From NCBI GenBank assembly GCA_011109175.1, contig RDEW01000064.1:1-64000 (forward strand): a stretch of 64,000 nt of DNA, in the 5' to 3' direction. Position 1 is the stretch's first letter. Every line of letters starts with the position of its first letter. Both the position numbers and the translations under genes were made by a program. Shown piece by piece: positions 7,472-63,780 of the stretch. Origin of the DNA: Dicyema japonicum. Taxonomy: Eukaryota > Dicyemida > Rhombozoa > Dicyemidae. The notes beneath the pieces are model-generated. The model saw only the letters and a program-made list of their open reading frames with translations. It did no database searches and was not told the DNA's origin.

Positions 7472-8542
7472 CTAAAATGCTAAATTATAGGCAATGCTTT
7501 TTAAATAGTCAAGAATTTCGCGATTGTCAAAGTCATTTACAATGCGTTGAATTCTTAAAGCATTATCTCTGTATTTTTTCTTTTGTGTAGGACCTTCCCC
7601 ACCAGCAATATACTGTTCAATTTTAATTTCATTTCTTGCTTGTTCTTTCTTCAAAACGTCAATAAACTTCCAAATCGTAGGATGACACGCTCCAATTAAA
7701 GAATTAAAAGAATGATGCCATCCTTCGCAAGAGTTATTCGTTTTAGGCCCAGCAACTCTCGCTGCTTCAAAACAATTCCACAATTCATGGGCAAAACGTG
7801 GACAATGACGTACTTGACGGCGTCCTATCCAAATATCTTCTACATAATCCAGTACAGGTTGAGCTTCTTCTGGGAAACTGTTGTAATCGCACAAATGTTC
7901 AAAATAATGAACAACGTGTAATGTTGGGACAAATGTATATAATTGATTAAACAAATATGGGACTGTCTAAAAAGTACCATCCGCATACAAAAAGTTTGTA
8001 GTGGAAAGCAAATTTAGATTTTTTCTCGTTGTAAAAATTATTGTTCTGTTAACACTGTCTTCACTATCAAACAATAGAAAAAGTTCATTGGCATAAGAGT
8101 ATCTGTATTCTGAAGGTATTCTTAACTGGTCTATGTTAAGTGGATTAGGAGGGGCTTGATCTTTTGTATTTCTTGAATTTCTAATGTTTCTTTTAATTAA
8201 AGAAGCTATGGGTAGTCGGGCAGACACCTTCAGTGGCAAACCCACACACACTTCAGTCGTAATAATATGTGGATTATCTTGTGATGCAAGAGCTCTTCTT
8301 TTTATTTCTTGAGTAATTCTCTTTGATTCGACATATGCAGCATCACCAGCATGATTGTGTTCGTTGACTCTTTTAATAATGATGTCTCCCTTGGTGTGTA
8401 CTCTCGCTTTACATTTAATTTTGTAGTAGGATTCACATTTCCATAATGTGACTTCGCCATTAAATTTTTCAAAACAGTAAATGTATCCATCTTCAAAAAG
8501 TTTTCTCTTAATTCTATCACTCATTACAAATTGCAAAGCCAT
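7472..8542 (-). pseudogene. FLYWCH-type MULE transposase, DDE core deleted
   Basis: The N-terminal part (8542 to 7970) has a FLYWCH-like zinc-binding domain: Y-x-C-F-x-K, WKCESYYKIKCKARVHT and the EHNH pair. It ends at LYADGTF, the start of the MULE transposase core. An in-frame TAG (7967-7969) follows, then TVPYLFNQLYTFV, as expected next in the core. The sequence then jumps to the C-terminal MULE region (FPEEAQPVLDYVEDIWIG, NNSCEGWHHSFNSLIGACHP, FIDVLKKEQ). Roughly 100 residues holding the second and third catalytic acids are missing. The transposase is therefore dead by deletion and nonsense. It lies between the two TIRs at 5282 and 9185. Confidence 0.8.
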
Positions 8543-9029
8543 GCTGTCAAGATATAAGAAATTAGCGAAAAAATATCACTTTATAGTAATCAATTATGAT
8601 AATGACGATAAAGTACAAAAGAATTCAAGGGCATTATCACCACATTACAAATGAATTCAAGGACATTATCACCAGATTATAAGCTACTTTATCAGTTAAA
8701 AGAAATACAATTACATGCAACCATTACTCTTGTGTTTAAGATAGAGATGAATACTGTCCTCAGCACTAAAGAAAACTGGCAATTTTATGTTTCAATCGTC
8801 GTATATAGATGAATACTGACAGAGTTATTTATTTTATTATTTGTAAGCCACAGGCGTACAATCTTTGGTAAGCCTAGCAAAAACAGTCATTGGTAATTAA
8901 TCCAAGGAGGGAACGCTAAAGAGAACGTCTGCTTGTGACAACTAAATTGATCCCGCCAATAATACATGGCAGGCATACGTCAACTTCTGAAGAGAGGTGA
9001 AAAAATAGGTCCTCTCTCTTCAGTTTTCA

Positions 9030-9692: not shown

Positions 9693-10748
9693 TCAGGGAT
9701 CAACTTTGGTAAGAATATCATCGGGACTTCCACCGAGAATACAATCGTCCAGATACCAGACGTTTAGTGGAGTGCAACGGTCCTGGGCAATATGGTCGAT
9801 AGACAAGGAAAATAGAAGAGGACCGAGTGGGTTCTCCTGTTGAACTCCGGATCCTGACGAAATAATTCCACTGCCAAAAACAAGAGGGGATGGATCCGAA
9901 TACGCGAGATATACAAAGGGATAAATCTGAGGAATCCTCCTCCTACAGGTATCAAGGACGGTGTCCCTTCTGACTGAATTGAAGGCATTCCGGAGCTCCA
10001 ATTTGAATAAAACTCTGTCCTCAACATTCAATTCAGCCGATTGTGACGCAAATTCTCTCACTGCGTGGATCCCAGCTTCACAGCCGCCATTGATTCCGAC
10101 ACCAAGCTGCGAAGGACAAAATTCGGCTGAAATTCGGGAGATAACAAAACGACAAGCCATTTTTGCGGATAAACGTTGAAATACGTTTCCAATTGCAATG
10201 GGGCGAATACCACCATCTTTCTTTCCGAGGCCCGTTAGATTCGCCGAAAAGAGGAGATTCCGACCAAAATCGGAAACGTTTCCGGAAAGCATGCGAGCTA
10301 CGAGATCCCGGGTTTGCTCCAAGAGTAGCGATCCAGGCCTGCCGATAGAATGGGACACCAGGTCTGATAGATGTTCAGGTTTGAGACCGTCAACTCCTCC
10401 ACTGCTACTTCTTCGGAAAGAACGAAGAGCGTTGTAAATGGCTGAAGTGGAAATATCATGCATAGATTGTTCTGGACGAACAGGTTTACAAAAGTCTTCT
10501 GGTTCTTGAGGATGTTTCTGTCCCAATATACAGAGTGTCTCCTGAGTGGCTTTCACCGGGTCAGAATCCGTACAAACAGTTCGAACTGCAGCAGTAATAT
10601 CGCCCTCCATTAATTTCCTCCTGACACGAGAGCGAAGCCTCTCAGGAGCCATACTAAACTGTTTGGAATTGGACTTTGGAAAGTAATCAACTGGGGAAAC
10701 AAATAAATCTTCAGCCAGGGACTCCCATGAATCCATAAAGGCACTCAC
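9693..10748 (-). pseudogene. Family A reverse transcriptase, palm intact
   Basis: 351 residues read without interruption. In order: finger region with SSSGGVDGLKPEHL, GGIRPIAIGNVFQRLSAKMA, SQLGVGINGGCEAGIHAVRE, motif A FKLELRNAFNSV, motif B SGVQQENPLGPLLF and the YLDD box in WYLDDCILGG. The usual G-x-x-QGxP of motif B reads QQENP, so the conserved G is replaced. Motif A has E-L-R where many RTs have D-x-x, so the first catalytic acid may be altered. It connects through a frame break to 9515-9194 and is part of the interrupted element 2830-11110. Confidence 0.75.
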
Positions 10749-11189
10749 GCGTTTCTTCAGGACATGGATAGAGAGGGTTTTCGAGAAGATGGGGCAGGCT
10801 TACGCTCTAACCCTATAGCCAGGACAGGGAAAAAGAAAAGAACCATCCAATCCTTTTTTGAGCCATTGGACACAGCTTTCTCAATGCAAGAAGAAAGGGC
10901 AGAAGCAATTGAGATCCGGGAAGCCTTGGGGATCCTGACAGGGATAATCTTCCTTTGTCGCGTGTTTGATAATAATACCAGAAAATCCACCGAGACATGG
11001 CTTCCAAAAGGTCTGATACAGATGATGATGACACAAAATGATCATGAGGTTCAATTTTAGTGAGTTCCAGACGGCAAGACCGGCACGACTACGATGGAAG
11101 TGATCGAGCAAAAAAAATGTACGAACGAAAACACTAGTTATAAATACCAGTGGTTGATATTCTACGTGGCCAATCCATTCCGATAAGCT

Positions 11190-12449: not shown

Positions 12450-13380
12450 AAAGTGTCTGGATTACAAATTGTGATCCCGATGCGTTCCAGTAAAATCCTC
12501 ATCCTTTCCCGGTGCTTTCACCTCGTGCCCACACAAGCTCGTACTGGGCGGCTGACTGTATTTGCAGGGCCATTTTCTCGCATGCCGGAGTTTACTTTCA
12601 TGAGGGCCTCCAGAGTAGTCGGTCCGGTTCTGTGTCTCCCACAAGTCCACCGCTCGGTAACTCTGAAAGCCTTCTTTTGTACGTCCTCGATTTCTTAGTT
12701 TTCGTCATTGATAATGAAGGTCCCCACGAAGCACACGCGTACGAGAAGCATGGTTCAATGTATTGTTTGTAGATATTCATCAAGACCGGGTTCTACCGCT
12801 CGGTAACTCTGAAAGCCTTCTTTTGTACGTCCTCGATTTCTTAGTTTTCGTCAATGATAATGAAGGTCCCCACGAAGCACACGCGTACGAGAAGCATGGT
12901 TCAATGTATTGTTTGTAGATATTCATCAAGACCGGGTGGGTACCTGTCTTCCTTATTCCAGATAAACATTTCAATTGATTTTCTTCTCGCACTTCAGAAC
13001 AATGTTTGCCACGTGTGGTGACAAACATAAGTGCGTATCCAGTGTCACGCCTAGGATCTCCTGACATTTGCTGACGGGGATTTCAACGCTGTTCAATTTT
13101 AAGATGACAGTCTTCTTCCCCAACCTTTTGTCCGAAGTAAACATAGACGTGACCGACTTCTGGAATTTACCGTGAGTCGGTTCTTCATTACCCAGGCGTT
13201 GAGTCGGTCCAGATTAATTTGTAATCTTTCTGTAGAATTTTGTAATTTAATCTTCCAGGTATAAATTGAATAAAGCGTGATAAAGGAGATCCTTAGGGGA
13301 CACCGTTTGGGAAAAGAAGCGAGACTGATTTCAGTCCTCCGAGGCATACACGTCCCCTCAGTCCACTTAAGAAATTTGTT
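12450..13380 (-). pseudogene. Jockey-like RT C-terminal part with internal duplication
   Basis: Pieces include LQINLDRLNAWVMKNRLTVN, HPVLMNIYKQYIEPCFSYAC and ASWGPSLSLTKTKKSRTYKR. The last of these occurs twice, because about 144 bp (12653-12787) is repeated at 12797-12935. The RT palm is missing or unreadable. Confidence 0.7.
12653..12935. repeat. Head-to-tail duplication, about 144 bp
   Basis: 12653-12787 and 12797-12935 are nearly identical (one base difference seen), within the jockey-like fragment. Confidence 0.9.
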
Positions 13381-13555
13381 ATCTAAAGTTTAAGCTTCTC
13401 CGGGATCTCCGACATGAAAATTTTCTTTGATAATATTTTTCTCGAAATAGAATCAAAGGCATTGTTAATATCAATGGAACATAAGACTGTTTTCAAATGC
13501 CTTGGTTTGTTTGAAAAATCATCTATAATGAAGTTGGTTTTGGTGAGGTAGTGAC

Positions 13556-15262
13556 GTGCCTCGTTTCTTGATTAGATCGCAATTGAGGAAAATGTCTAAA
13601 AGGCAATGGATACAAAGGGATGCATCTCGTCTAAAAGTCCTTACGTTCAATGCTAGAGGCTTATCTACGACCTGGTCGAGGAAGATTCTCTGTGATGACC
13701 TGGAGAGATACGACGTTTCTATTGGGTGTCTACAAGAGACGAAAGTTACTTGTAGCCTTGATGAAAACTTTGGCGAATATCGAATTATATGTCAGCCGAG
13801 CGACTCAAAACATTATAAACTTGGATTTGCCATCCACTCAAAGTTGACAAGTGCAGTCCACCGTATATGGAGTGTGAATGACAGGATCTGTGTTATACAA
13901 ATCCGGCTAAACGACTTACCTCCTTCGAAGAGCTTTCTGACAATTGTAAATGTTTATGCGCCACACTGCGGGAGAGTAGCGAAAGATCCGACAGAACTAC
14001 ACGACGTCTATTCAACACTGTTACGGACGTACAACGAATATGAGTCGTTATCACTAATACTCATTGCTGGTGATTTGAATGCTAAAGTCGGGATGAAGAA
14101 TAATCTGGATGATGTTTTCTTGGGAGAACATGGACGTGGAATAAGAAATTTACCCGGGACAATACTTGGTCACTTTTGTATGGCAAACAACCTTTTCCTA
14201 TGCAATACTGCATTTACGCATCCTGCCTGCCACAAAACTACGTGGATGGGGAAGCGAAGGAACTCAGAAGGAAAGCTGGTTCCAATATACAACCAAATCG
14301 ATTATGTCATATGCCGGGCTAAAGACAAACACCTTCTAGTAAACGCACGTTCATATCAAGGTTCGACGACTGTCAGCGACCACAAGATGGTTTTTGCGAC
14401 CTTCACCCTGAAAAAACATGCCATTAAATACAGGAATGCAAATAATCACGAATTTAAGAAAATCAGAGGCGACTACGCGACTGAAAGGCTGATTTCTCAA
14501 CCGGAGACTACTGAGAGATATCAACAATACATTCAGACTAATTTGCAGGACGTATTGGTGGATACCACGCTAGAAGACGCCTGGAAACGCACAAAGGACA
14601 CCATCAACGAAGCTGCTGAAGCATGTCTTGGCAAAAGGGAGAATAGTAAAATGCACCTGAAGGCTATTCATCCAGATGTTCCCGAGCTTGCGAAAAGTCT
14701 AAAAGAAATAAATATGAGAAAATCAAATGCCACTGACACTAATGCGATAAAAGCCCTTCAAGGCGAAAGACAACGTGTCAGAAGAAAAATAAAGGGTCTG
14801 AACAAGAAGCTTTTCATAGAAGAAATAGCCTCCTGTATAGAAGAAGTAAACAAAGTGAAAGACAACGCACAGGTGTACGTCGCTGCCCGTTTGCTGCGGC
14901 GAACGAACCGAAGTCGACTAACCATAAAAGACGAGAACGGTAAGCTGATACTGAACACCAAAGAACAAACTGAAGCCATCGCGGCCCACTTTGAGAAGCT
15001 TTTCAACATCAAAACCATAGAAATCCACCCATTTGATGGAAGGCCAAGACCCCTTAAGATACCAATCACGGCCGAGGAAATCAAAACGGCCTGCCGAAAA
15101 CTCAAGAATAACAGAAGCCCCGGACCAGATGCGATAAACCCAGAACTACTGAAATACGGCCCTGACTTCCTTTTTGAAAAAATCGCTACACTACTAAATG
15201 AAATGTTTTCAACTAACTCAACTCTACCTCTGGGTACGGGACTACTAATCCCCATACAAAAA
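13556..15262 (+). CDS. RTE-type retrotransposon ORF: APE endonuclease and RT start, cut by gap
   Basis: The frame is open for 569 codons up to the N block. An APE endonuclease occupies roughly residues 25-280, with LTFNARGLSTTW (Asn), CLQETKV (Glu), LIAGDLNAKVG (Asp/Asn), NQIDYVICRAKDKH and TVSDHKMVFA (Asp/His), so all catalytic positions are present. A basic linker follows, then the RT start EEIKTACRKLKNNRSPGPDA, NPELLKYGPDFLFEKIATLL and GTGLLIPIQK, where the gap begins. The family is that often annotated 'craniofacial development protein 2-like' (RTE/BovB). This is the least damaged retroelement ORF in the window. The first ATG lies upstream of the domain and may not be the true start. Confidence 0.85.
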
Positions 15263-16778: not shown

Positions 16779-17129
16779 NCCTTCACGTCTGGAAGATCTA
16801 TGGTCTGGGACGCAACTTGCATAGACACGTTCTCAAGCACGAACATTTTTAAATCTGTTCAGACACCTGGAGCAGCTGCTTCGACCGCGGAAAACCTAAA
16901 AATTAAGAAATATTCTTGCCTCGGGGATCGCTACCGATTTACTCCTGTTGCGACCGAATCATCGGGAGCCGTTGGTCCAATGACGGCTGAATTCTTGCAA
17001 GAACTCGGAGGATTGCTTGGCAGAAAGAAAAGGGATCAACGAGAAGGGTTATGGCTAAGACAAAAGATCGGAATAGCCATACTCCGAGGGAACTCGTTCG
17101 CAATCCACGCAGCAGGCTTCCTCAACTGA
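16779..17129 (+). pseudogene. Family A C-terminal fragment
   Basis: It reads SMVWDATCIDTFSS, KIKKYSCLGDRYRFTPVA, SSGAVGPMTAEFLQELGG and LRQKIGIAILRGNSFAIHA before the stop. An undetermined base at 16779 lies near its 5' end. The last 140 bp are duplicated head-to-tail immediately downstream (to 17302). Confidence 0.75.
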
Positions 17130-17302
17130 CATTTGTTTAATTGTTAAAAAAAATTAATCATGGCAGAAAGAAAAGGGATCAACGAGAAGGGTTATGGCTA
17201 AGACAAAAGATCGGAATAGCCATACTCCGAGGGAACTCGTTCGCAATCCACGCAGCAGGTTTCCTCAACTGACATTTGTTTAATTGTTAAAAAAAATTAA
17301 TC
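17019..17302. repeat. Head-to-tail duplication, about 142 bp
   Basis: The last codons and 3' flank of the family A fragment (17019-17160) are repeated at 17162-17302 with one change. Confidence 0.9.
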
Positions 17303-17639
17303 AATTGATTCACTAAAAAAAATTAAAAAAAAAAATTAATATAAAATAATAATATTCTTTGTGATGTCTGAAAAACGTTTGGAATAATTCCCGCATAAAT
17401 GACTATTGTGAGACTCCCCCAAACGAAACATATATTCTAAGATGTTTGGAGAGGTAAATGTAAACAGACTCCTTTCCCAAAATAGGGATTCTATTTTCGT
17501 TCCTTTCAAATCTTCTTGATTGTTGTGGTTACATTTTGTACTTCTTAATAAAGACATCAGGCAAGACACGTGTGATATCGTACAATTTTAGGTTATTCTT
17601 GATAACGTCAGGTTCTCATCATTTCATTAATTGAGAGGG

Positions 17640-20003: not shown

Positions 20004-20811
20004 TCACTCATATTTATCCTCACAATCAGCAATCACCCGACCGTCCTTCATTAACGACACATCCAAGGTACGATCTACTACAACCACCCACTACCATTAA
20101 GAGTCCTTCGATGGTAAAAGTTCTTCACAGCCACAGCTTCCTCCATTGTAGAGAACACGAGCTCTGCAGTGTACTTCTCCATCTTAGCCTCACAGACAGC
20201 CCCAATGGCTGAGAATATGTGCTACAATAAAAATGAGGGTTACATATAGATTCTGGACTGTTATAATGTCAGGGAGATTCCTCACTATCACCTTTACTCC
20301 AAGGAGGGGACTTCTGTACTCACAGTCCTACTTTGAGTCACTCCAATACTTGTCTCTCAGACAGACTGTACTGTTGGGAGAAGTCCACGTGGCCATAGGA
20401 TTTGAGGAGTTGGTCGATGTGGCGGTTTATTTTCTGTTTGCTTTGCTCGAAGGAGGTCGTTGTTCCTCCGTTTTGGATGTTCCTGTGGGAGTTGACGGAT
20501 ACACATAAATTTTTAGGAGGAGACTCCATTGAAATAACGGTGACTGGACGATCCATCTGGATGTTGTCGATTGAGACTTTTTTTGGTGGTGGCTGAGCTG
20601 TGAACTTGGTCTTCTGTTTGTTTCTCACAACGAATGTATTTTTGGTAGTGGAAGTTAACGAAGGCACTGATTTCAGTTTGAATGTGATTTGGGATGATCC
20701 ATTATCTTTACGTTTCGTCACAGCGGGATTTGCTGTCGTTATTCTACTACGGGCGTCACCCTTGATGGGCTCAGTTGGTTTACTTCTTTCTATTAAACAA
20801 CGAGCATCCAT
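20004..20811 (-). CDS. POLDIP3/SKAR-like RRM protein, three ultra-short introns
   Basis: Exons 20811-20350, 20327-20244, 20221-20095 and 20074-20004 are separated by introns of 22, 22 and 20 nt, all GTA..TAG. They join into 247 codons plus a stop. The first 150 residues are low-complexity and basic, with two DAR motifs (MDARCLIERS and KGDARSRI) recalling the DAR repeats of POLDIP3/SKAR. The last 90 residues form one RRM: KVIVRNLPDIIT (RNP2 strand), YHIFSAIGAV, AELVFSTMEEAVAVKNFY and LNDRTLDVSLM. Without splicing the RRM is broken by stops, so the fold itself supports the introns. The family links mRNA export and the exon-junction complex to S6K signalling. An ALYREF-type export adaptor is the main alternative. 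The ATG chosen is the first in frame. Confidence 0.82.
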
Positions 20812-28529: not shown

Positions 28530-29260
28530 GAAATCACTGCCAGGAGTTTATTCTTGACAGCTCTTTTGCCATCTTCAAATCTTCTAGATAGATCTCTATA
28601 AATGCTGTTTTCTCAACACTGGTTCATAACAAGGAGTTTATTCTTGACAGCTCTTTTGCCATCTTCAAATCTTCTAGATAGATCTCTATAAATGCTGTTT
28701 TCTCAACACTGGTTCATAACAAGGAGGTCAATGATTTTGGGAGAAAAGTCTAGGCGGTCCTGTAGATCTATGCATCTCCTCAGTTTATTCTTATCGACAC
28801 AATCTTCTTGATGTGCCAGGGAAAATGGACAACATAGTTTCTTTAGTATATTTTTCTGGCAACATTATCCAGACAGTATAATATCAGATCCGTTAATCGT
28901 TTACTTGTTTTATCAATTTCCAGAGGAATCTTGGGCTCACTGTGGCCTAACATTAACTCCTTTGCAATGAACATCCTATAGTCATGCCAGTTTAGATTAT
29001 TCGCATTTTAACAGACAAAGACTCCAGGTTTATTAGATAGTTCTTTTTATATTCGATTATTTTTTTTAGACAGCTCCACCAAAAAGTCGCATGCTTGCAG
29101 ATCTACTATTGGGTCACCAACTTCTATGTGGGAGATGTGGGTGATTCTTAGATGTTCTTCATATCGAGACTTAGGGATCAGAGTGTTGGTTGATGAAGAG
29201 GATAAGTCGGTGCAAATATGAAAAACCTGTGGAGAAGAAGACAGCCTTGTAAGCATTAGT
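28530..29260 (-). pseudogene. R2-like retroelement fragment
   Basis: The minus strand matches 50280-50720 closely (LELMLGHSEPKIPLEIDKTS-like codons, then ILYCLDNVARKI). A second piece (29047-29256) reads ITHISHIEVGDPIVDLQACD. A segment of about 85 bp is duplicated head-to-tail at 28551-28727. Confidence 0.6.
28551..28727. repeat. Head-to-tail duplication, about 82 bp
   Basis: The segment beginning AGGAGTTTATTCTTGACAGC occurs twice in direct succession. Confidence 0.9.
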
Positions 29261-35263: not shown

Positions 35264-35510
35264 TTATATTTTCCTCGGACATTGTATTTTGAGAGGTGAC
35301 GCCGATGAAACCTGTATGTTTTCAAGCTCCTGTTTACTTTCCTTCAGGTTCACGTATAACAGAATGGATCGGATAAACGTTTTATAAAATTTAGTCCTAG
35401 TCCGAGTGAGATGTGCCTTCTTCGTACAAATATTCCAAATTTTCTTAAAGATAGTGCCCAGTAACTTCCTTCTGCTGATATCCCCGGGGTATCCCAAAGT
35501 GAGCAACGGG
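35264..35510 (-). pseudogene. RT C-terminal fragment
   Basis: SRRKLLGTIFKKIWNICTKK and TRTKFYKTFIRSILLY resemble the thumb region of LINE RTs. The type is not clear. Confidence 0.4.
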
Positions 35511-35762
35511 AATTAAAAGTTAAATTATTATTTCTCAAACGTTCTTAATAATATAATCGTCAATATATCAGAATATGTTAGGGTACATAATATCTCTTTA
35601 CGGATATTTTTTTCAGTCAAGGTTCGCCGCGTGAGCAACGGGAATTAAAAGTTAAATTATTATTTCTCAAACGTTCTTAATAATATAATCGTCAATATAT
35701 CAGAATATGTTAGGGTACATAATATCTCTTTACGGATATTTTTTTCAGTCAAGGTTCGCCGC
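35499..35762. repeat. Head-to-tail duplication, about 132 bp
   Basis: The segment beginning GTGAGCAACGGGAATTAAAA is repeated exactly at 35631. Confidence 0.9.
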
Positions 35763-39305: not shown

Positions 39306-39487
39306 AAATCTGACTCGAAGTTGAATGAGGACCAGAATCTATTAATACCACTGGGAGTGACTGTGAAGAAAATAGCGGTCTTCCGTCTGAAGGGCTAATC
39401 TGACTCGAAGTTGAATGAGGACCAGAATCTATTAATACCACTGGGAGTGACTGTGAAGAAAATAGCGGTCTTCCGTCTGAAGGGCTA
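39306..39487. repeat. Head-to-tail duplication, about 91 bp
   Basis: The segment beginning AATCTGACTCGAAGTTGAAT is repeated exactly at 39397. Confidence 0.9.
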
Positions 39488-41767: not shown

Positions 41768-42635
41768 TTATTTCACGTTTGTTAGAAGCCTGTAAATTGA
41801 ATAATAACCGCATTGATAGATGCTCAATCTTATTGTATTATTCACAAGTCCGAGTCCTTCGAGTGTGTACATTGAGTAAAGTACTTGTTCGTCAGTCGCC
41901 ATCAGCTTAAGGGACAACAATTTTAGAAAGAACCTTTCGTAATTATCACAAAATTTGTACATTAGGTCAACATGACCTATAAATATAGCTCCAGATACCC
42001 AAACTCTTGCTTTTTTTATGACATTTTCGATAGGATATTCTCTATAATTGAATACTTGACTCATAGTGACACGTGTATCGTAAATGTATTTTGTTTTTTT
42101 CAGTTTATACATTTTTTTAGTTTTTGCGTCACGGAAAAGACCGACATCAACCCAGGCGACGTATGAGAATTTATGGGAGAACATTTTGATTGCTCGTCTC
42201 AAAATATCGTGTTTGGAATTCATGACGGCGGAGTACTTATAATTAGTAGTTACTTTTGGATGTAAGCCAAATCCAGGAAGTGTGAAAATATGCTTTATTT
42301 CTTCAATTTTTTTAAACCCAATCAATTCTGACCTGTTTAGGTTAATTAAAGAGGTAGGAAGGTTTTTTCTAATCTTGCCCATGTATCTTAGGATTTTCTT
42401 GTCGTCTGAGAAAAATACAAGATGGTTTTCAATATAGGCAAAATTTCTCATCCACATAAAATACACATTAGGTCTACGAAGCCCATGTAGTCTCATAAAA
42501 CCTCCTATATTATAGTATCCACTGACTAATAAGATGTCTTTGTTGTGAACTCTGTCATTTGTCTAAATATTATAAACTCTTTACATAAATTTTCCACAAC
42601 AATATACAAATAACGATCAATAAACTCAAAAACAT
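41768..42635 (-). CDS. HtrL/YibB-family (glycosyltransferase-like) type II membrane protein, one 22-nt intron
   Basis: Exon 1 (42635-42585) encodes MFLSLLIVICILLWKIY, a short signal anchor. After a 22-nt intron (42584-42563), exon 2 (42562-41768) runs open for 264 codons. Features of the HtrL/YibB family are SGYYNIGGF at the first strand, YFMWMRNFAYIENHLVFFSD, MNSKHDILRRAIKMF, the YVAWVDVGLFR block (the family's W-[IV]-D-x-G-x-x-R), SGAIFIGH and DEQVLYSMY. The family has a GT-A-like fold and occurs in bacterial polysaccharide loci and in animals such as nematodes. Substrate and activity cannot be told from sequence. A Golgi-type membrane location is inferred from the anchor. A diverged partial copy lies at 22564-23070. 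Neighbours are transposon remains only. Confidence 0.8.
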
Positions 42636-42939: not shown

Positions 42940-43280
42940 AAACATAAAATAGCAAAAAAATCAGTCAATAAGAATAGAGTGTCATTTTAATGATATTTTA
43001 TTATTCTTAATTAACAAAAAACGTTATTAATATTTAAAAATAAAAAAAAATTATTTATTTCTGCACGTGGTTTTTAGCTTCAAGTTGAACATGTATGAGT
43101 TGCGTAAGATACATAAAATAGCAAAAAAATCAGTCAATAAGAATAGAGTGTCATTTTAATGATATTTTATTATTCTTAATTAACAAAAAACGTTATTAAT
43201 ATTTAAAAATAAAAAAAAATTATTTATTTCTGCACGTGGTTTTTAGCTTCAAGTTGAACATGTATGAGTTGCGTAAGATA
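42940..43280. repeat. Head-to-tail duplication, about 170 bp
   Basis: The segment beginning ACATAAAATAGCAAAAAAAT occurs at 42941 and 43111. Each copy includes GCACGTGG and the start region of the integrase element. Confidence 0.9.
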
Positions 43281-44519: not shown

Positions 44520-46320
44520 TTTCCATTCCTCATATTACTAAACCCCCAAGGGTAACAAAGGCACGATTCGAAGTATCAATAAGTCATGTTCAAAACCTCA
44601 TTACAAACTCAAGAAACTCACAAGCCACGGGACCCGATCGGATCAGCATATTCCACCTAAAGCACCTCGGTCCAAACGGGCTCTTGGCACTTAAAGATAT
44701 CTACGAATTCTCCATCAACAGGTGTTTCATCCCGATGTTATGGAAGAAGTCTAACATTATCCCAATACTCAAGAACAACAAAGCTTCCTCCTTGCCCTCT
44801 TCGTTCAGGCCAATTTCCTTAACATCTGTTGTCTCAAAAATCCTCGAAAGGATCATTCTTGACTAAATCACTCCCTACCTCGACCTCTCCGACTCACAAC
44901 ATGGTTTCCGTCCTTTACACTCGACCACCACGCACTTACTGACACTAACCCAATACATCCCCAACGGTATCAACAACTGCAAACCCCCGGAACGAACTGT
45001 CTTGGCCTCTATTGACCTAACTAAAGCTTTCGACAGAATCTCCCGTGTGGTCATCTGCAACAAGATCTATTCTACAAATATTCCCTCTGTATGGAAGTCA
45101 TGGCTCACAAATTTCCTCTCGGGAAGACTGGGTCATACGCGTCTATATTCAAATCTATCAAGGTATCGACTCCTACCAAACGGTGTTCCGCAGGGATCAG
45201 TCCTTTCACCCTAACTTTTTAACCTTTACGTCAAAGACATCCCAACAACCCAAAATACGTTACTATTGACATATGCCGATGATCTAGTAATCGCATCCAG
45301 GAGTGGCGATGTTCGACTGGCCACCGAAAAAGTGCAGTATCACCTGAACTTGCTATCCGACTGGATGAACTTAAACTGGATGAGTGTATCCTCCTCGAAG
45401 TCATCAGCTACCCTGTTCACAACCGATCGAAGACAATTCAACTTAAACCCCACACTCTCGTTGGGAGACGAACCACTCCCCTTTATTAAATACCCGAAGA
45501 TCCTTGGAGTTGTCTTCGATCCTTCACTCTGTTTCAACAGACAAGTGGAGGAAGTAATGACAAAAGCCAAGCGGAAACTTAACATATTACGGGCAGTAGC
45601 TGGCCACTCAAACGGTCAGCAAAAAGAAAACTTAACTCTTCTCTACAAACAATTCATCAGGACTACACTCAACTACGCCTCACCAAGTTGGGCCCCCTCA
45701 ATCTCCTTGTCCCTTTCTCAAGAACTGCAGAAAGTGCAAAACTCGGCGCTGAGAATAATAACTGGCAGCTTAAAGTCAACCCCCACCGACCATTTACATT
45801 GGGAGTCGAAAATCCTCCCGCTATATGACCACCTGGAAATGCGTAATTTACAATTCCTACGGCAGTCGTTCGACCCGAATCACCCAGTTCACGCTCTGCT
45901 AAGTAACAATAACCGCAGATACATACGCAGGACCCTCTTTGACCTACAAAGAGCCTTGTCGAAGATCACCCCCCCTCAAGAAGACTCAACTTGGACCCGC
46001 CGAATCCATGATTTCATCTCGACACGGGCCATTAGGACACTTCAATATAACAAAGTCTTGGAGCGCTTCCCCCCCTGATATCAGTCCAACGGAACAATCG
46101 CTCCCGAGGAAGATCAGAATCGTACTGGCTCGCCTACGATGTGGACACCACCCTTTCCTGGCTGGCAGAGTAGTTCGGGACCTTTTTCCCTGCCCTGGAC
46201 CACCGGATGCAAAAGTCGAGGATCTCTGGGAGCGGCCTGTCCGGACTGCACACTCTCTGATGGTCGCCGGCTTCCCACTTGCTGGCGAAGCCGGGGTTAA
46301 TAATTTAATTTAATTTAATC
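44520..46320 (+). mobile_element. Jockey-like non-LTR RT, nearly whole, two nonsense codons
   Basis: One reading frame carries SQATGPDRISIFHLKHLG, FRPISLTSVVSKILERIILD, then TAA (44864-44866), LDLSDSQHGFRPLHSTTTHL, motif A LASIDLTKAFDRISR, motif B PNGVPQGSVLSP, then TAA (45212-45214), motif C LTYADDLVIASR and the thumb YPKILGVVFDPSLCFNRQVE to LERFPP* at 46078. A zinc-knuckle-like tail (RLRCGHHPFLAGR) is in another frame at 46100-46180. The 3' end is a short AATTT tandem (46300-46320), a common tail for such elements. The upstream endonuclease is missing. Confidence 0.85.
45266..46078 (+). pseudogene. Jockey-like RT palm and thumb ORF
   Basis: 270 uninterrupted codons begin at the YADD box and continue through LSDWMNLNWMSVSSSKSSA, TLNYASPSWAPSISLSLSQE and LQKVQNSALRIITGSLKSTP. 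This is the best preserved part of the 44520-46320 element. Confidence 0.8.
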
Positions 46321-46384: not shown

Positions 46385-46675
46385 AAATTACGGTTTAAAG
46401 TTAGGATTTATATTTAGGGATATAGATTAGAGTTAGGGTTAGGGTTAATGATTAGTGTTTGGGTTAGGATTAGGGTTATGGTTTAAGTTAGGGTTTATGA
46501 TTAGGGCTAGGTTTTAAGTTAGGGTTAATGATTAGGGCTAGGGTTTAAGTTAGGGTTTATGATTAGGGTTAGGGTTTAAGTTAGGGTTTATGATTAGGGA
46601 TTGGTTTAGGATTAGGGTTAGTAGTAGGATTAAGGTTAGTGTTCTAGATTAGGGTTTAGGTTTTATGTTTAAGTA
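46385..46675. repeat. Degenerate TTAGGG-like interstitial repeat
   Basis: Many TTAGGG, TTAGGGTT and AGGATTAGGG words occur, with a higher-order unit of about 30 bp (TTAGGGTTTATGATTAGGG and similar) repeated several times. It begins about 65 bp downstream of the jockey-like element's 3' tail. Animal telomeres are typically TTAGGG. Confidence 0.8.
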
Positions 46676-47089
46676 GGAGTTTCAATAGTATTGAACTTAT
46701 TTTAGTTAGTAGGGAAGTAGCTAAGAAAGTAAATTTTTAATATTAAAAGTTTATTTTTGCTAAGTTTTTTTTTAAATGTTTAATAAATAAATAATAACAT
46801 TTCCTACATTAATTGTATTCAATTGTTTCTGGTTGTTCTATTTTTTGATTTTGAATGAATAATTAATTCCATATATCCAATGGATTTGAAAAAATTTGTA
46901 TATTTAACTAAATGCAAAAAAAATCGATTGAGTTCCACCTACGGAAGGTGACAATAACTCAAAGGAATTTTATTTTGTTTAAAGGAAATGAAAAAATCAA
47001 GAAAAAACTGATACACGTGATTGTTGAACATCCTCTTGGCTATTTCGTCGAGGTTTTCAGGTGTTAGAAGCTGTAATTATAATTGTTGT

Positions 47090-47940
47090 ACTTACTTTGC
47101 GTTCACAGTATGGTGAGTTGAAACAACACTCTGAGATCCTAAGCTTTGTATTTTCTTCTTCAGGACAGAACTTGTTTTTTGCATATAAATATTCAATATG
47201 TAACCATTGTAAGAAGTCGAAAAAGTCGGTGGATCATATATCTACACGTTGCAATAAGATCCTTGACAGCGACACATAGATGACATGATGAAGTGGTTGG
47301 ATACATACATTTGCACCTATGCAGAATGTACGGCATCAAGAAGTCAAAGAAACTGAAGACAAATTCTATAAATTCAATAGTCAATTCTCAGAGAGTTGAA
47401 GTCGGGATGAACCCTTCAAAAAGACAGATACTCAGGTCAGGTTCAATGAACCTGTTATTTTTGTCCACGATAAAGTGAAGAATGAATTACTTCTCAAGCG
47501 TTATTGTAGTCAATTCTCAGAGAGTTGAAGTCGGGATGAACCCTTCAAAAAGACAGATACTCAGGTCAGGTTCAATGAACCTGTTATTTTTGTCCACGAT
47601 AAAGTGAAGAATGAATTACTTCTCAAGCGTTATTGAGAACCAGTGAAGTAGAAAAGTTTCATAGGACGATTTATTGACTGCAGAGCTTAAGCTACTTATG
47701 GTGCTCCAGTGAAAGTTGTTTCAACTGGGACGGTGTGGTTTCGAAGGCCTGTAGATCTCATTTGGGAACCATCGGATGGATGCGCCAACCAGAACATACA
47801 TCCTATCCGTTGTCCACAAACAGACGTTGGATAGCATATTGGTGGATTATAAGTATGAGGTCCACACGATCGAGGAAAATCTGGCTACAGCAACCAATCA
47901 CATGGTGGAGTTGGCAGCCCAGTACAATGAACTGAGTGAG
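47090..47940 (+). pseudogene. R2-like zinc knuckle and nuclease-like tail
   Basis: 47160-47280 reads YSICNHCKKSKKSVDHISTR followed by CNKILDSD, the CCHC knuckle that precedes the RLE domain in R2-type elements. 47300-47480 contains QNVRHQEVKETED-like codons and FVHDKVKNELLL, followed by a head-to-tail duplication. It ends at 47860-47940 with YEVHTIEENLATATNHMVEL-like codons. Confidence 0.6.
47379..47635. repeat. Head-to-tail duplication, about 128 bp
   Basis: The segment beginning GTCAATTCTCAGAGAGTTGA is repeated exactly from 47507. Confidence 0.9.
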
Positions 47941-51949: not shown

Positions 51950-52290
51950 ATATCAAGTCTGTTGGATGACTATGGAATATAAGGATTTTGGTTAGAAATA
52001 AGATTTAGTTAATTTATTCAATTTAATTTATTTATTCAATTTTATTACGTATTTTGAATAATATATTAATTCTATTTTTAAATATTAAAAATTGGTTTAC
52101 AAAACCACTTACAAGACAACAAAATATAATAGGTAGGCTTTGAAAGAATTAAATGATGATTATAAAATCTTGAGTTATTTCAGGTTCTTTATCATAAATA
52201 TGTCAAATGGTTTGTTCTCAATGATGAATTATGGATAAGTTACATAATTATTTAGTTCATCAAAGAGGCAGTGGAAAATGAGAATACTCC
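51950..52290. repeat. Dispersed repeat shared with 57670-58060
   Basis: Both contain GACTATGGAATAT, AATAGGTAGGC, ATTATAAAATCTTGAGTTAT and TTTATTTAGTT(C/T)ATC in the same order and direction. The next 150 bp are also distantly similar (CTCTGGA-AAAATAT). Confidence 0.7.
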
Positions 52291-52562
52291 ATTGCACGAT
52301 TGAAACTTCAATCGATTTTTCACACCTATTCCTCTGGAGAAAAATATAAACGAAAAATTGTTTCATGAAATCTGAAATTAATGTCATGAATTAGCAAACG
52401 TTCGTCCACAATCCCAAGACTGACCCCATTGCACGATTGAAACTTCAATCGATTTTTCACACCTATTCCTCTGGAGAAAAATATAAACGAAAAATTGTTT
52501 CATGAAATCTGAAATTAATGTCATGAATTAGCAAACGTTCGTCCACAATCCCAAGACTGACC
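52289..52562. repeat. Head-to-tail duplication, about 137 bp
   Basis: The segment beginning CCATTGCACGATTGAAACTT is repeated exactly from 52426. Confidence 0.9.
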
Positions 52563-52757: not shown

Positions 52758-52976
52758 CAAGAAAATACCACTTAGGAATCCGAAAGCCGTTCGCATCCAT
52801 GCCGCTTAATGTCTATCTTCACTTTTCGACGATGCACTCATATCGAACTTTGAAGGTTCTTGGATACAAGAAAATACCACTTAGGAATCCGAAAGCCGTT
52901 CGCATCCATGCCGCTTAATGTCTATCTTCACTTTTCGACGATGCACTCATATCGAACTTTGAAGGTTCTTGGATAT
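52758..52976. repeat. Head-to-tail duplication, about 109 bp
   Basis: The segment beginning CAAGAAAATACCACTTAGGA is repeated exactly from 52867. Confidence 0.9.
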
Positions 52977-60309: not shown

Positions 60310-63300
60310 TTAATCGAAAATAACATCAGGAAACCAATGCTCAATAACATCATGCGACAAATACTTTGTCCCTTTGATCACCTACCATACAATCATCACT
60401 TACTTTCCCTAAACACATCTTCATCATTGTGGAAGTATCAATCTCACACAGTATAGACGACGTCATCTACGTCACAACACAAACTACCAGTAAAAACAAC
60501 TTCATCAGATTCTCAATCTCATCTCCCTTAGATTCTTCCTCCGACAAAAGAGCGGGAAAAAACGTGCGAATAAACAATGAAATCGTATCAAAATTATTCG
60601 AAAATCCCCGGTATTCCTCATAATATCTAACACCAACGTGACAACACGGACGGGTCAAACAAACAGCAATGAGGACCACCAGAGAGTGAATCATGTTATG
60701 TTTGCTCATCCCTCCCCACTCTACCAATCACCCAACTCATACTGTTGCACGTGTCATTCAGAAACAACACCAACTCCTCGTCAGAGAAAGGCAACAGACT
60801 CGTCACAATCTAAGTCACCACCATAACTACAGAATCCCTACAACAGTCCTCTGCTAACTCTGCCAGTCCAGGACGCGTGGTTGAATACACCCTATTCACC
60901 ACCGACATTAAAATCTCCCGGTAGTGCAACAGCAGACTCGACAGTACCAGTCGGTTAAAGATGGCGTCCATTTCTAAGGTAACTCAGGGACCAACCTTTC
61001 CGACGGTTCTCTAAAATAAATCCACTCCTTACTCTGAAAATTCTTAATAGACTCAATCAGCAGTACGTGGTCTCCCACAGAATTACAGATGTGTACAACC
61101 TCTGACTGCAATTGAACGGCAACTTTCTGACATTATTTCCTACTCTACCATTATCTCATTGAATTGATCCAGCACGTGGGCAAAAACCTTTTCCATCAAG
61201 TATTCCATGCCACGTAACCCCATCAGCAAACACAATGCCTCCATCTCTACCATTACCACACTCCAACCTTGTCGTGATGTGTATTCCTCCAAGTCGAACA
61301 CGTGAGCACCCTCATTTGCACACAACCCCACGAAACAGTCACAGGAGAACGAGTATATCATTTCCCTCCGAGCCAACGCCTTCAGCAGAAAGTCAACGTA
61401 CCTAAGTAACCCCCACGTTACTACCACGCCGTCATTCTCTGCTGTAGAGGCGGTAGGTCCCCAATCTCAGTACAGTTCACCCACAGCTCATTATTAAGTG
61501 AGTCCATACCACGTGTCCAGCCAACTAGGAATAAAAGAACCCCTTACAGACAGCATCAACTTGCACAACCACATCAATGAGGACGGATTTCCTCAAGTTC
61601 ACTTGTGAGGGAAGACAAGTGATCATTGCAGCATTGCTTTGATACGAACTTTCATCTATCAGTCTTAAGAGGAGGGGACTGAGGGCGCTCTCAAACTGCT
61701 TTCCGTGATGTTCCGTCGCGAATCTACGGAAAGTCCTTGACAGGGCGGTGATAGATGTCATAAGGTTGGACCTACTGTGACCATAATAACCCACGTGGTT
61801 CAAAGTACTCTTTATTGTTGGATAAAGATATCTCAGACTTGCTTTTCGACTGCTTCCCGTATATGTGACCCATCATTCTCTGTCCCAACACGGCGGGATC
61901 CAAAGCCTTTATCAACCCACGTGTCACCTGTTCTGTAAACTTCAGCCTATTGTAGTAGACGTTCTCGATATACTGAACCAAGGAGAAAACCACGTTCTCC
62001 AGAAATTTATCACAGAGACTTTCTGCTAGGGTTATCAATGGAAATTGCTTGTGTTACCACCAGCTACCTCCTCAGGACAAAGCACGTGGAAGCAGGTTCC
62101 CACTCCCTCTGTAAGTCGAAGGTAGCCACCAATGTAGTTGATTCTGCTTATTCTGGAGAGACACAGAAAGAACTGGTGCTCTATCAGGTTGGGGGTGTGG
62201 CTAAATCACGGAAAAGGCTTACAAATATGTGGAGAGGTCACAGACACGTGCCAGAAATTCGGGGTATGCGTTAACAGCCATGTTTATGGAAGAGGGTCTG
62301 ACAGGAGAGCAGGTACAGGGATCCCCTTTAAGGAGCAATTCCCCTGAGCCATAGACAAAACATACTCGCAGTCATCTACATGTCCCTCACGGAATGCCGT
62401 CTCCAATCGTACGCAGATGTCCAGTCCACATGGAGTTGACAAAGTCAGACTTGTCGTCCAACTCTCCCTCAAATTTAATCTTTTTCCCGCCACTGAGCAT
62501 ATTAAGCCCCAAAATGAGTCTTATTTCGTCCGTTGCATACAGCAGGATCTTAGTCACGGAAGGTAACTACAACACATGTAACCAGTACCTCACGGTAGAT
62601 ATTGTTGGACAGCTGGGCATTGACCTCCTCCATCATACCCAGAAGGAGTGTCCTTCTCTCCCTTATCATAGTCAAACTGGAGATCAGTCACAACAATACT
62701 AGTTGGTGGGGAAATTCAAGGATTTGAACTCGGTGGAGAGCTTGGGAGGCAGTTGTCTAAATATAAAAGGTTACCAACAATTTGATGGCAGTAAAACATC
62801 GAACACAAAGATCTTGGGAAAACCTGACCTTGTCCCTGATGAGACAGACCAGAGGGAATGCTCTAACTGTGTTGATGAGGATCGAAGACAGAGATTCCTC
62901 CGTTAGTTCCGTGGCTATTCCGATGAGGGACACTTGGGATTAAAAAATTTGTTACGGATAATCAGTCTAGAGAGGCTAAAGGGGGTCAAACCGTTGAGCT
63001 CCGTCTAAATCTGAGACCACTTGATCACCCAAGTGATGGATTCGAAGTGAGAAGTGTCAATTTTAAGGAAATTCATCTTCATGTTCTTTTCGGTTGAAAT
63101 CACACAATTTCGGATCGCCTGACCAAAGAAGAAGACCTCCTTCCGGATTTTGCAGTAGGGGGCGTCGACCTCGTTCAGTAACCGGATCAACGCGCTAAAC
63201 TGGGAGTCCCTGAAGCTTAGAGGAACAAATACTGAATCTTTTCCCCATGAATACACAAATGACAGTAGTAGTAGAGGACGACCACGTGCTTAAGGTTAGG

Positions 63301-63780
63301 AATGTCGGAGATGATGAGAATACAGCTCACCAGGTCGGCCACCAGCTGCAAAATGGATACAGTCGGGTAGTAGTTGGTGTTCTATAGTGAGAAGAAGCAC
63401 TACAATGTCCAGTCGTGGAAGAGTATCGGCTAACAGTCTGGCGAACTCTCGGATGTGGTCAAGGAGGCCCATAAAGTTCTGTAGAGTATAGTACATGGGA
63501 CCGATGTCCTTCATAATATCCATCCTGAGAAGGCAAAGATTGGAAACAAAATTCTTTAGTGAGTGAAATTTAAACCGACTTAATGTCTAAGGAATCGTGC
63601 TTCTTGGAGATATACTTGATAGCAGACTCCACGTTTTTATCCGCTATCCATCCGGATGTGTCACACAGCATCTGCATGCAGGAGTAATGGTACCTTTTTG
63701 TAGTTGTAAAACCTTACAAGGAGGCCACTACATCTTAAGCATAATTTGGAGGTATATTCGGATAATACATAGCAATCCAT
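60310..63780 (-). CDS. NCKAP1: NCKAP1/HEM (NAP1), WAVE regulatory complex subunit, about 23 ultra-short introns
   Basis: NAP1 is the scaffold subunit that pairs with CYFIP in the WAVE complex driving Arp2/3 actin assembly at the membrane. Exons, 5' to 3': 63780-63694, 63671-63576, 63553-63404, 63381-63233, 63209-63029, 63004-62956, 62932-62779, 62756-62700, 62676-62589, 62566 to about 62223 (inner joins unresolved), 62200-62068, 62047-61791, 61771-61548, 61524-61425, 61401-61268, 61246-61149, 61126-61033, 61010-60996, 60973-60831, 60809-60743, 60720-60488, 60466-60404, 60381-60310. Phases agree across every joined intron. The product matches NAP1 collinearly: N-terminal ADKNVESAIKYISKK, RERRTLLL, YATDEIRLIL, LCDKFLENV, EEYTSRQEMEAL, then FSNNFDTISLFIRTFFPALL and a C-terminal HDVIEHWFPDV. 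I estimate about 980 residues, against about 1,120 in vertebrates. The start is the first ATG after an in-frame stop. Joins within 62223-62500 need cDNA. Confidence 0.9.

Follow-up and report, generated by a model that had tools for sequence, protein, structure and literature searches.

The analysed stretch (the window) comprises the first 64,000 nt of the Dicyema japonicum contig RDEW01000064.1 (assembly GCA_011109175.1, forward strand) and carries on its minus strand a gene for the actin regulator NCKAP1 (NAP1/HEM), a subunit of the WAVE complex, which is cut by a series of GT..AG segments mostly 22 or 23 nt long. The gene runs from an ATG at 63780 to the end of a stop codon at 60310; both ends agree with the interval 60310-63780 given by the original prediction, an earlier reading of this sequence. 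In the unspliced translated frames, collinear NCKAP1 blocks are spread over different frames. Aligning the gene to vertebrate NCKAP1 (1134 aa, P0022) with a home-made spliced aligner, we covered reference residues 6-1117 in a first run and 26-1118 in a run with learned splice and codon scores, at an identity of about 27% (244 of 915 aligned residues). As the original prediction had anticipated, the spliced product is collinear with the family over most of the reference, the alignment stopping about 16 residues short of its end. The resulting product of 979 aa, modelled across a lesion described below, belongs to the Pfam family Nckap1 (PF09735), which it matches with 219 bits (E 1.5e-64; cut-off 27), the best stretch spanning 523-1107 of 1119; an earlier and rougher splice of 862 aa had reached 151 bits, with a best stretch of 12-207. 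Likewise, the match to the NCKAP1 chain of PDB entry 3p8c (3p8c_B) improved from E 1.3e-13 for the first rough splice to E 9.1e-26 for a better, still rough one. When the window NCKAP1 was used as a protein query, none of 8000 candidates matched at E 0.001.

Introns of the NCKAP1 gene

With learned splice and codon scores, the aligner placed 22 GT..AG segments in the gene, 20 of 19-24 nt (nine of 22 nt, five of 23 nt, three of 21 nt and one each of 24, 20 and 19 nt), together with two longer ones of 48 and 59 nt. The 48-nt segment lies at the lesion and is treated there. The 59-nt break (61032-60974) can be divided into two 22-nt introns with a 15-nt exon between them, and we chose this division because both halves have good ends and the internal motif described below; on the same grounds a single intron, or a pair of 25 and 22 nt, is less favoured and remains a candidate. 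A gene scan trained on the split model kept the split (lengths compared only), which is not independent of our choice. When the scan was trained without it, with a flat length prior and no homology, the 59 nt stayed one segment, while four other NCKAP1 junctions were misplaced. Thus the firm number of introns is 20 and the likely number 22. The claim of at least 22 introns therefore holds firmly for 20, and the claim that half of them measure exactly 22 nt holds with the split (11 of 22) and becomes 9 of 20 without it.

Numbered from the 5' end of the gene and all on the minus strand, the 22-nt introns are intron 1 (63672..63693), 2 (63554..63575), 3 (63382..63403), 7 (62757..62778), 9 (62549..62570), 10 (62201..62222), 16 (61127..61148), 20 (60721..60742) and 22 (60382..60403) and, given the split, 17 (61011..61032) and 18 (60974..60995). 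Those of 23 nt are intron 4 (63210..63232), 6 (62933..62955), 8 (62677..62699), 13 (61525..61547) and 14 (61402..61424), and those of 21 nt are intron 15 (61247..61267), 19 (60810..60830) and 21 (60467..60487). Intron 5 (63005..63028) measures 24 nt, intron 11 (62048..62067) 20 nt and intron 12 (61772..61790) 19 nt; with the split, the distribution becomes 22 nt in eleven cases, 23 in five, 21 in three, and 24, 20 and 19 in one each. Judged from lengths and phases, retention of an intron would shift the frame in 18 of 22 cases and bring in an in-frame stop in three more (introns 5, 19 and 21). Only 61267-61247 does neither; this frame-keeping, stop-free segment of 21 nt, called coding by the flat-prior scan, is the least certain of the aligner-placed introns.

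Controls on the intron model

All 256 pairs of end dinucleotides were given equal penalty and lengths of 17-27 nt in spliced alignments to the reference. GT..AG came first of the 256 with a score of 221, followed by 163 for the next best pair, the other 255 having a mean of 99 (standard deviation 17). In a parse that used codon scores only and no reference, GT..AG again ranked first of 256 (69.8 vs 49.7). Among ten length bins for GT..AG segments, 18-25 nt scored 189, the other nine 87-101 and an alignment without introns 87. Of the exact lengths 12-40 (29 tried), only 19, 21, 22 and 23 rose above 87, with a peak at 22 (149). A reversed reference scored 54 and the opposite strand 46. Indeed, the segments have what is expected of U2-type introns, namely GT..AG ends and removal that restores both frame and homology, and the claim that excising GT..AG segments of 19-24 nt recovers the family alignment is borne out by the alignment as well as by the end-pair and length controls. 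Such lengths are, as had also been stated, far below those of ordinary animal introns.

A positioned branch-point-like motif

Within the introns we found a motif, TNAY; in 18 of 22 NCKAP1 introns it is placed so that its A is 6-8 nt away from the 3' end (3.1 in shuffles). The A stands at 6 nt in introns 9, 10, 14, 19 and 21, at 7 nt in introns 2, 3, 11, 12 and 15-18, and at 8 nt in introns 6, 7, 8, 13 and 20; introns 1, 4, 5 and 22 are without TNAY at 6-8 nt. The motif had been selected on these same introns, with A at 5-10 nt, from seven candidates (the others being YTNAY, TRAY, TGAY, TRAC, TNAC and YTRAY). TNAY with A at 6-8 nt was therefore fixed first and then tested on held-out introns of the kinase and CCT chaperonin genes described in the next section, where it occurs in 16 of 25 kinase introns (shuffles 4.6) and in 5 of 6 CCT introns (shuffles 1.4; reached by 13 of 5000), together 21 of 31 (shuffles 6.1). 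Pooling NCKAP1, kinase and CCT introns gives 39 of 53, against 9.2 in shuffles (standard deviation 2.7; reached by 0 of 5000). As the intron prediction made use of positions +3 to +5, -3 and -4 only, columns -6 to -8 are free of selection. Decoy GT..AG segments carry the motif at 6-8 nt in 15% of 1167 cases in the kinase loci and in 9 of 77 cases in NCKAP1 exons. The distance from the intron start to the TNAY A is 11-20 nt, most commonly 15 (15 of 39). Together with the U2 recognition sequence reported below, the introns thus have the branch-point-like motif of the U2 type, and its A is the predicted branch point.

Tiny introns in other genes of the genome

We extended the search to the whole genome (64,672,829 bases in 191 contigs). 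Within the window itself, a scan with the NCKAP1-trained model detected a second gene with tiny introns, which encodes an RRM protein on the minus strand at 20007..20811 (about 20007 being the 3' side), with introns at 20349-20328 (22 nt), 20243-20222 (22 nt) and 20094-20075 (20 nt). Its RRM_1 match (24.4 bits, E 2.6e-5, cut-off 20.7) appears solely with the introns removed; when sought in each of the three exon pieces, no RRM match was found.

Intron lengths can also be read from the gaps between neighbouring profile matches, a measure that involves no intron model. It yielded 38 junctions, 15 from kinases (all 142 matches), 20 from CCT chaperonins (40 matches) and three from a U2AF-like gene (4 of 5 matches). 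The implied lengths are 22 nt and 23 nt (13 each), 25 nt (four) and 26 nt (three), with 11, 13, 20, 38 and 68 nt once each; 33 of 38 fall within 22-26 nt, so that the genome-wide distribution is narrow and lies mostly below 30 nt. A first gene scan of kinases with NCKAP1 codon usage returned no gene over threshold. We then took codon usage from kinase open frames and set a flat prior on lengths from 15 to 120 nt; models were obtained at 11 of 20 kinase loci, whereas the other nine yielded none. These models contain 46 predicted introns, and 25 of them measure 18-30 nt, most commonly 23 and 24 nt (six each); many of the longer predicted segments look like bridging errors. In one CCT gene, six introns of 22-23 nt were predicted along with another of 71 nt. 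Among 18 other stretches (0.9-10 kb, contigs 1-18), two contained intron segments. The tiny introns are hence a genome-wide trait and not peculiar to NCKAP1, so that the single-gene picture of the original prediction, right about the introns themselves, was incomplete.

These data also bear on the idea that an intronless gene has been broken up by indels from sequencing or assembly. Artefact-like duplications do occur in this assembly (see below). However, such indels would have to fall into a narrow range of 19-24 nt, favour GT..AG above the other end pairs, bear an internal motif at a set position, and recur with matching lengths across many contigs in genes for kinases, CCT and U2AF-like proteins; we consider this explanation next to impossible.

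Splicing machinery

Searching the genome for spliceosomal small nuclear RNAs (snRNAs), we found U2 at 25 places, 22 of them over the cut-off, with GUAGUA in place in all four loci read (eight fetched), U6 at 10 places (nine over the cut-off) and U1 at 11 places, with ACUUACCUG near the start in both loci read. U12 scored over the cut-off at one place (C68:163471-163599, 85.4 bits), and the minor spliceosome may thus have been kept in this reduced genome. On the protein side, SF1-HH has one match (E 6.2e-21), and U2AF-like exons reach E values down to 7.5e-22. Given these snRNA and SF1/U2AF-like genes, the introns would most simply be removed by the normal major spliceosome.

Comparison with known short-intron lineages

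Ultra-short and uniform dicyemid introns have been in print since 2007, and NCKAP1 is a new example of this known trait. Published values are 26.2 +/- 1.9 nt (n = 16) for Dicyema acuticephalum (PMC2222250), a median of 25, a mean of 24.93 and a standard deviation of 2.51 nt for 41 introns of the same species (PMC2483917), and a median of 27 nt with about two thirds under 30 nt for Dicyema sp., next to a median of 57 nt for the orthonectid Intoshia linei (both PMC6543705). For D. japonicum, PMC6736024 gives a genome of 67.5 Mb in 377 scaffolds with 36.7% GC, 6.2 introns per gene and a mean intron of 38.2 nt. What these data have in common with ours is an animal genome of similar size in which many genes have very short introns of closely similar length. 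Gene finders apply a default minimum intron length, and we considered this as a possible cause of the published mean of 38.2 nt.

The motif differs from what has been published. By its hexamer measure, which counts the most frequent hexamer and tolerates up to three degenerate positions, PMC2483917 reports no branch-point signature in dicyemids, Paramecium or Bigelowiella natans, whereas the window genome has a positioned TNAY; the commonest Dicyema hexamer, ctwayk, was present in 12.2% of the 41 introns and is compatible with TNAY. The hexamer test is stricter in its letters and apparently free of position, and the positioned TNAY qualifies that test and does not repeat it. In the openly licensed literature, as far as its text was available, we found no published report of a dicyemid branch-point motif.

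The lengths also resemble those of unrelated lineages. Introns measure 20-35 nt in Paramecium and 18-21 nt in the Bigelowiella natans nucleomorph (PMC2222250), 16-17 nt in Mikrocytos, 15 nt in Stentor and 21-29 nt in Nyctotherus, in the last of which no branch point was found (PMC2633312, PMC12862383, PMC10245619 for the lengths; PMC2633312 for the branch point). All share a narrow range within 15-35 nt with our gene. On lengths alone, the tiny introns could hence come from another short-intron eukaryote such as a ciliate or rhizarian, and not from an animal. Against this stand tyrosine-kinase-like exons with an SH2-like part at two of the kinase loci (L039 and L042, by eye), the best match of a transposon in the window, which is in Octopus sinensis, and a genome size close to that published for Dicyema; an origin outside the animals appears improbable to us. 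The NCKAP1 family itself is wider than animals, so that NCKAP1 alone does not decide the matter.

A lesion in the window copy and a degraded duplicate

The original prediction had called the gene complete, which did not hold: as assembled, its frame is broken at about 62445-62290. Candidate introns of 18-27 nt around 62445-62290 were examined, and none joins the frames. NCKAP1 matches occur at one other place in the genome, C153:184541-184801, on the same contig and about 120 kb off (two places in all, the counts being lower bounds). Reading 10 kb around it (C153:180001-190000), we found a duplicate in which the introns are kept and which is 92-95% identical to the window copy in three blocks within the gene and one behind it. 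The stretch that corresponds to the lesion is one open frame in the duplicate, while in the window copy (62290..62446, minus strand) about 112 nt of it are absent, with one further frame-shifting difference nearby, a missing base. Because the duplicate is open across the stretch, the 48-nt bridge of the aligner (62412-62365) is ruled out as an intron, be it as 48 nt, as 26 plus 31 nt, as 69 nt or as a GC-AG intron. Without the 112 nt or so and the one base, the assembled gene cannot be called intact, its spliced frame, compared with the duplicate, being interrupted between start and stop. In comparison with the NCKAP1/HEM family (PF09735, 3p8c chain B), this lesion in the middle of the gene sets the window copy apart.

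The duplicate is itself degraded: single-base indels interrupt its exons, stops were seen by eye, both ends are partly missing and a stretch of about 270 nt is present twice. Identity between the two copies is 94.1, 95.8 and 93.5% at the three codon positions and 92.9% in introns, a divergence too even to be informative.

The window also holds tandem blocks at nine places, each block being present in two copies of 90-169 nt with 99-100% identity; they resemble gap-filling artefacts (12649-12937, 17018-17303, 28542-28726, 35499-35762, 39307-39487, 42942-43280, 47378-47635, 52289-52562 and 52758-52975). With such artefact-like blocks in the window, a real lesion is no more likely than a mistake in the assembly. 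The window NCKAP1 might otherwise be a young pseudogene, with a real lesion and introns merely inherited, and the absence of about 112 nt and one base that form an open stretch in the duplicate would fit this. However, the remaining window gene is open along its spliced length and it is the duplicate that has indels, stops and missing ends; moreover, NCKAP1 matches are found at two places only (again as lower bounds), and the artefact-like blocks speak in the same direction. We therefore regard the pseudogene as a possible but rather doubtful explanation.

Interpretation

Taken together, we are highly confident that the gene is a dicyemid nuclear NCKAP1 with shrunken U2-type introns that bear a branch-point-like TNAY motif and would be removed by the major spliceosome, the window copy carrying a lesion as assembled. 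Several observations weigh against this reading. The U1 matches all lie under the Rfam cut-off (best 69.0 of 69.5), and U2AF stays under the NCBIfam cut-off (82.6 of 310.3, in a split gene), in a search that was also positive in 2 of 14 control genomes. The mode of 22-23 nt is somewhat under the published dicyemid means (24.93-38.2 nt) and medians (25-27 nt). Without the two split introns the NCKAP1 count for TNAY is 16 of 20, and outside the 53 introns counted the motif is found at 6-8 nt in 1 of 3 RRM-gene introns and in 0 of 2 U2AF-like introns. Finally, the introns of the kinase and CCT genes were predicted, and some of these predictions are probably wrong, e.g. the 71-nt segment in the CCT gene.

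In mechanistic terms, the spliceosomal introns of the dicyemid genome, all of U2 type, have shrunk evenly to about 22-23 nt. Each retains GT (mostly GTA or GTT) and AG, and most also have TNAY at the 6-8 nt position given above. This geometry leaves 11-20 nt, mostly 15, upstream of the A, and downstream a polypyrimidine tract would hardly fit. Removal would be by the major spliceosome, probably through intron definition. From the sequence we infer that these segments are in fact spliced and that branching would take place at the TNAY A.

Other features of the window

At 13547-15260 lies a long interspersed nuclear element (LINE), with broken open reading frames extending to 15460 and seven protein matches, three of which, including the best, are from Octopus sinensis at 37-51% identity and bear the name craniofacial development protein 2-like; dicyemids live in cephalopods. 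Broken LINE-type open reading frames at 9696-10799 and 45215-46075 have weak RVT_1 matches under the cut-off. On the minus strand, an intronless open frame of 264 aa (41771-42562) matches HtrL_YibB (PF09612, E 9.9e-9), and a FLYWCH zinc-finger open frame (7970-8575, E 4.4e-15) is perhaps a transposon remnant (by eye). A degenerate TTAGGG-like repeat array lies at 46387-46682, internal to the contig.

Implications

It seems likely to us that in an animal the spliceosome has become fixed on a single layout of very small introns, in which a length of about 22-23 nt goes with TNAY as branch point, placed 6-8 nt ahead of the 3' end and about 15 nt behind the 5' end, SF1, U2AF, U1 and U2 being kept. 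A 3.5-kb gene with some 20 introns exemplifies the practical side, as gene finders and read mappers with a larger minimum intron would miss or mangle such genes. If our reading is true, dicyemid introns, which have been reported as lacking a branch-point signature, would have a clear and positioned one, and loss of the motif would not be obligatory in short-intron lineages. Removal of 22-nt introns in an animal that has U1, U2, SF1 and U2AF would be a natural test of the lower size limit of the major spliceosome, a question that the positioned motif would make directly testable.

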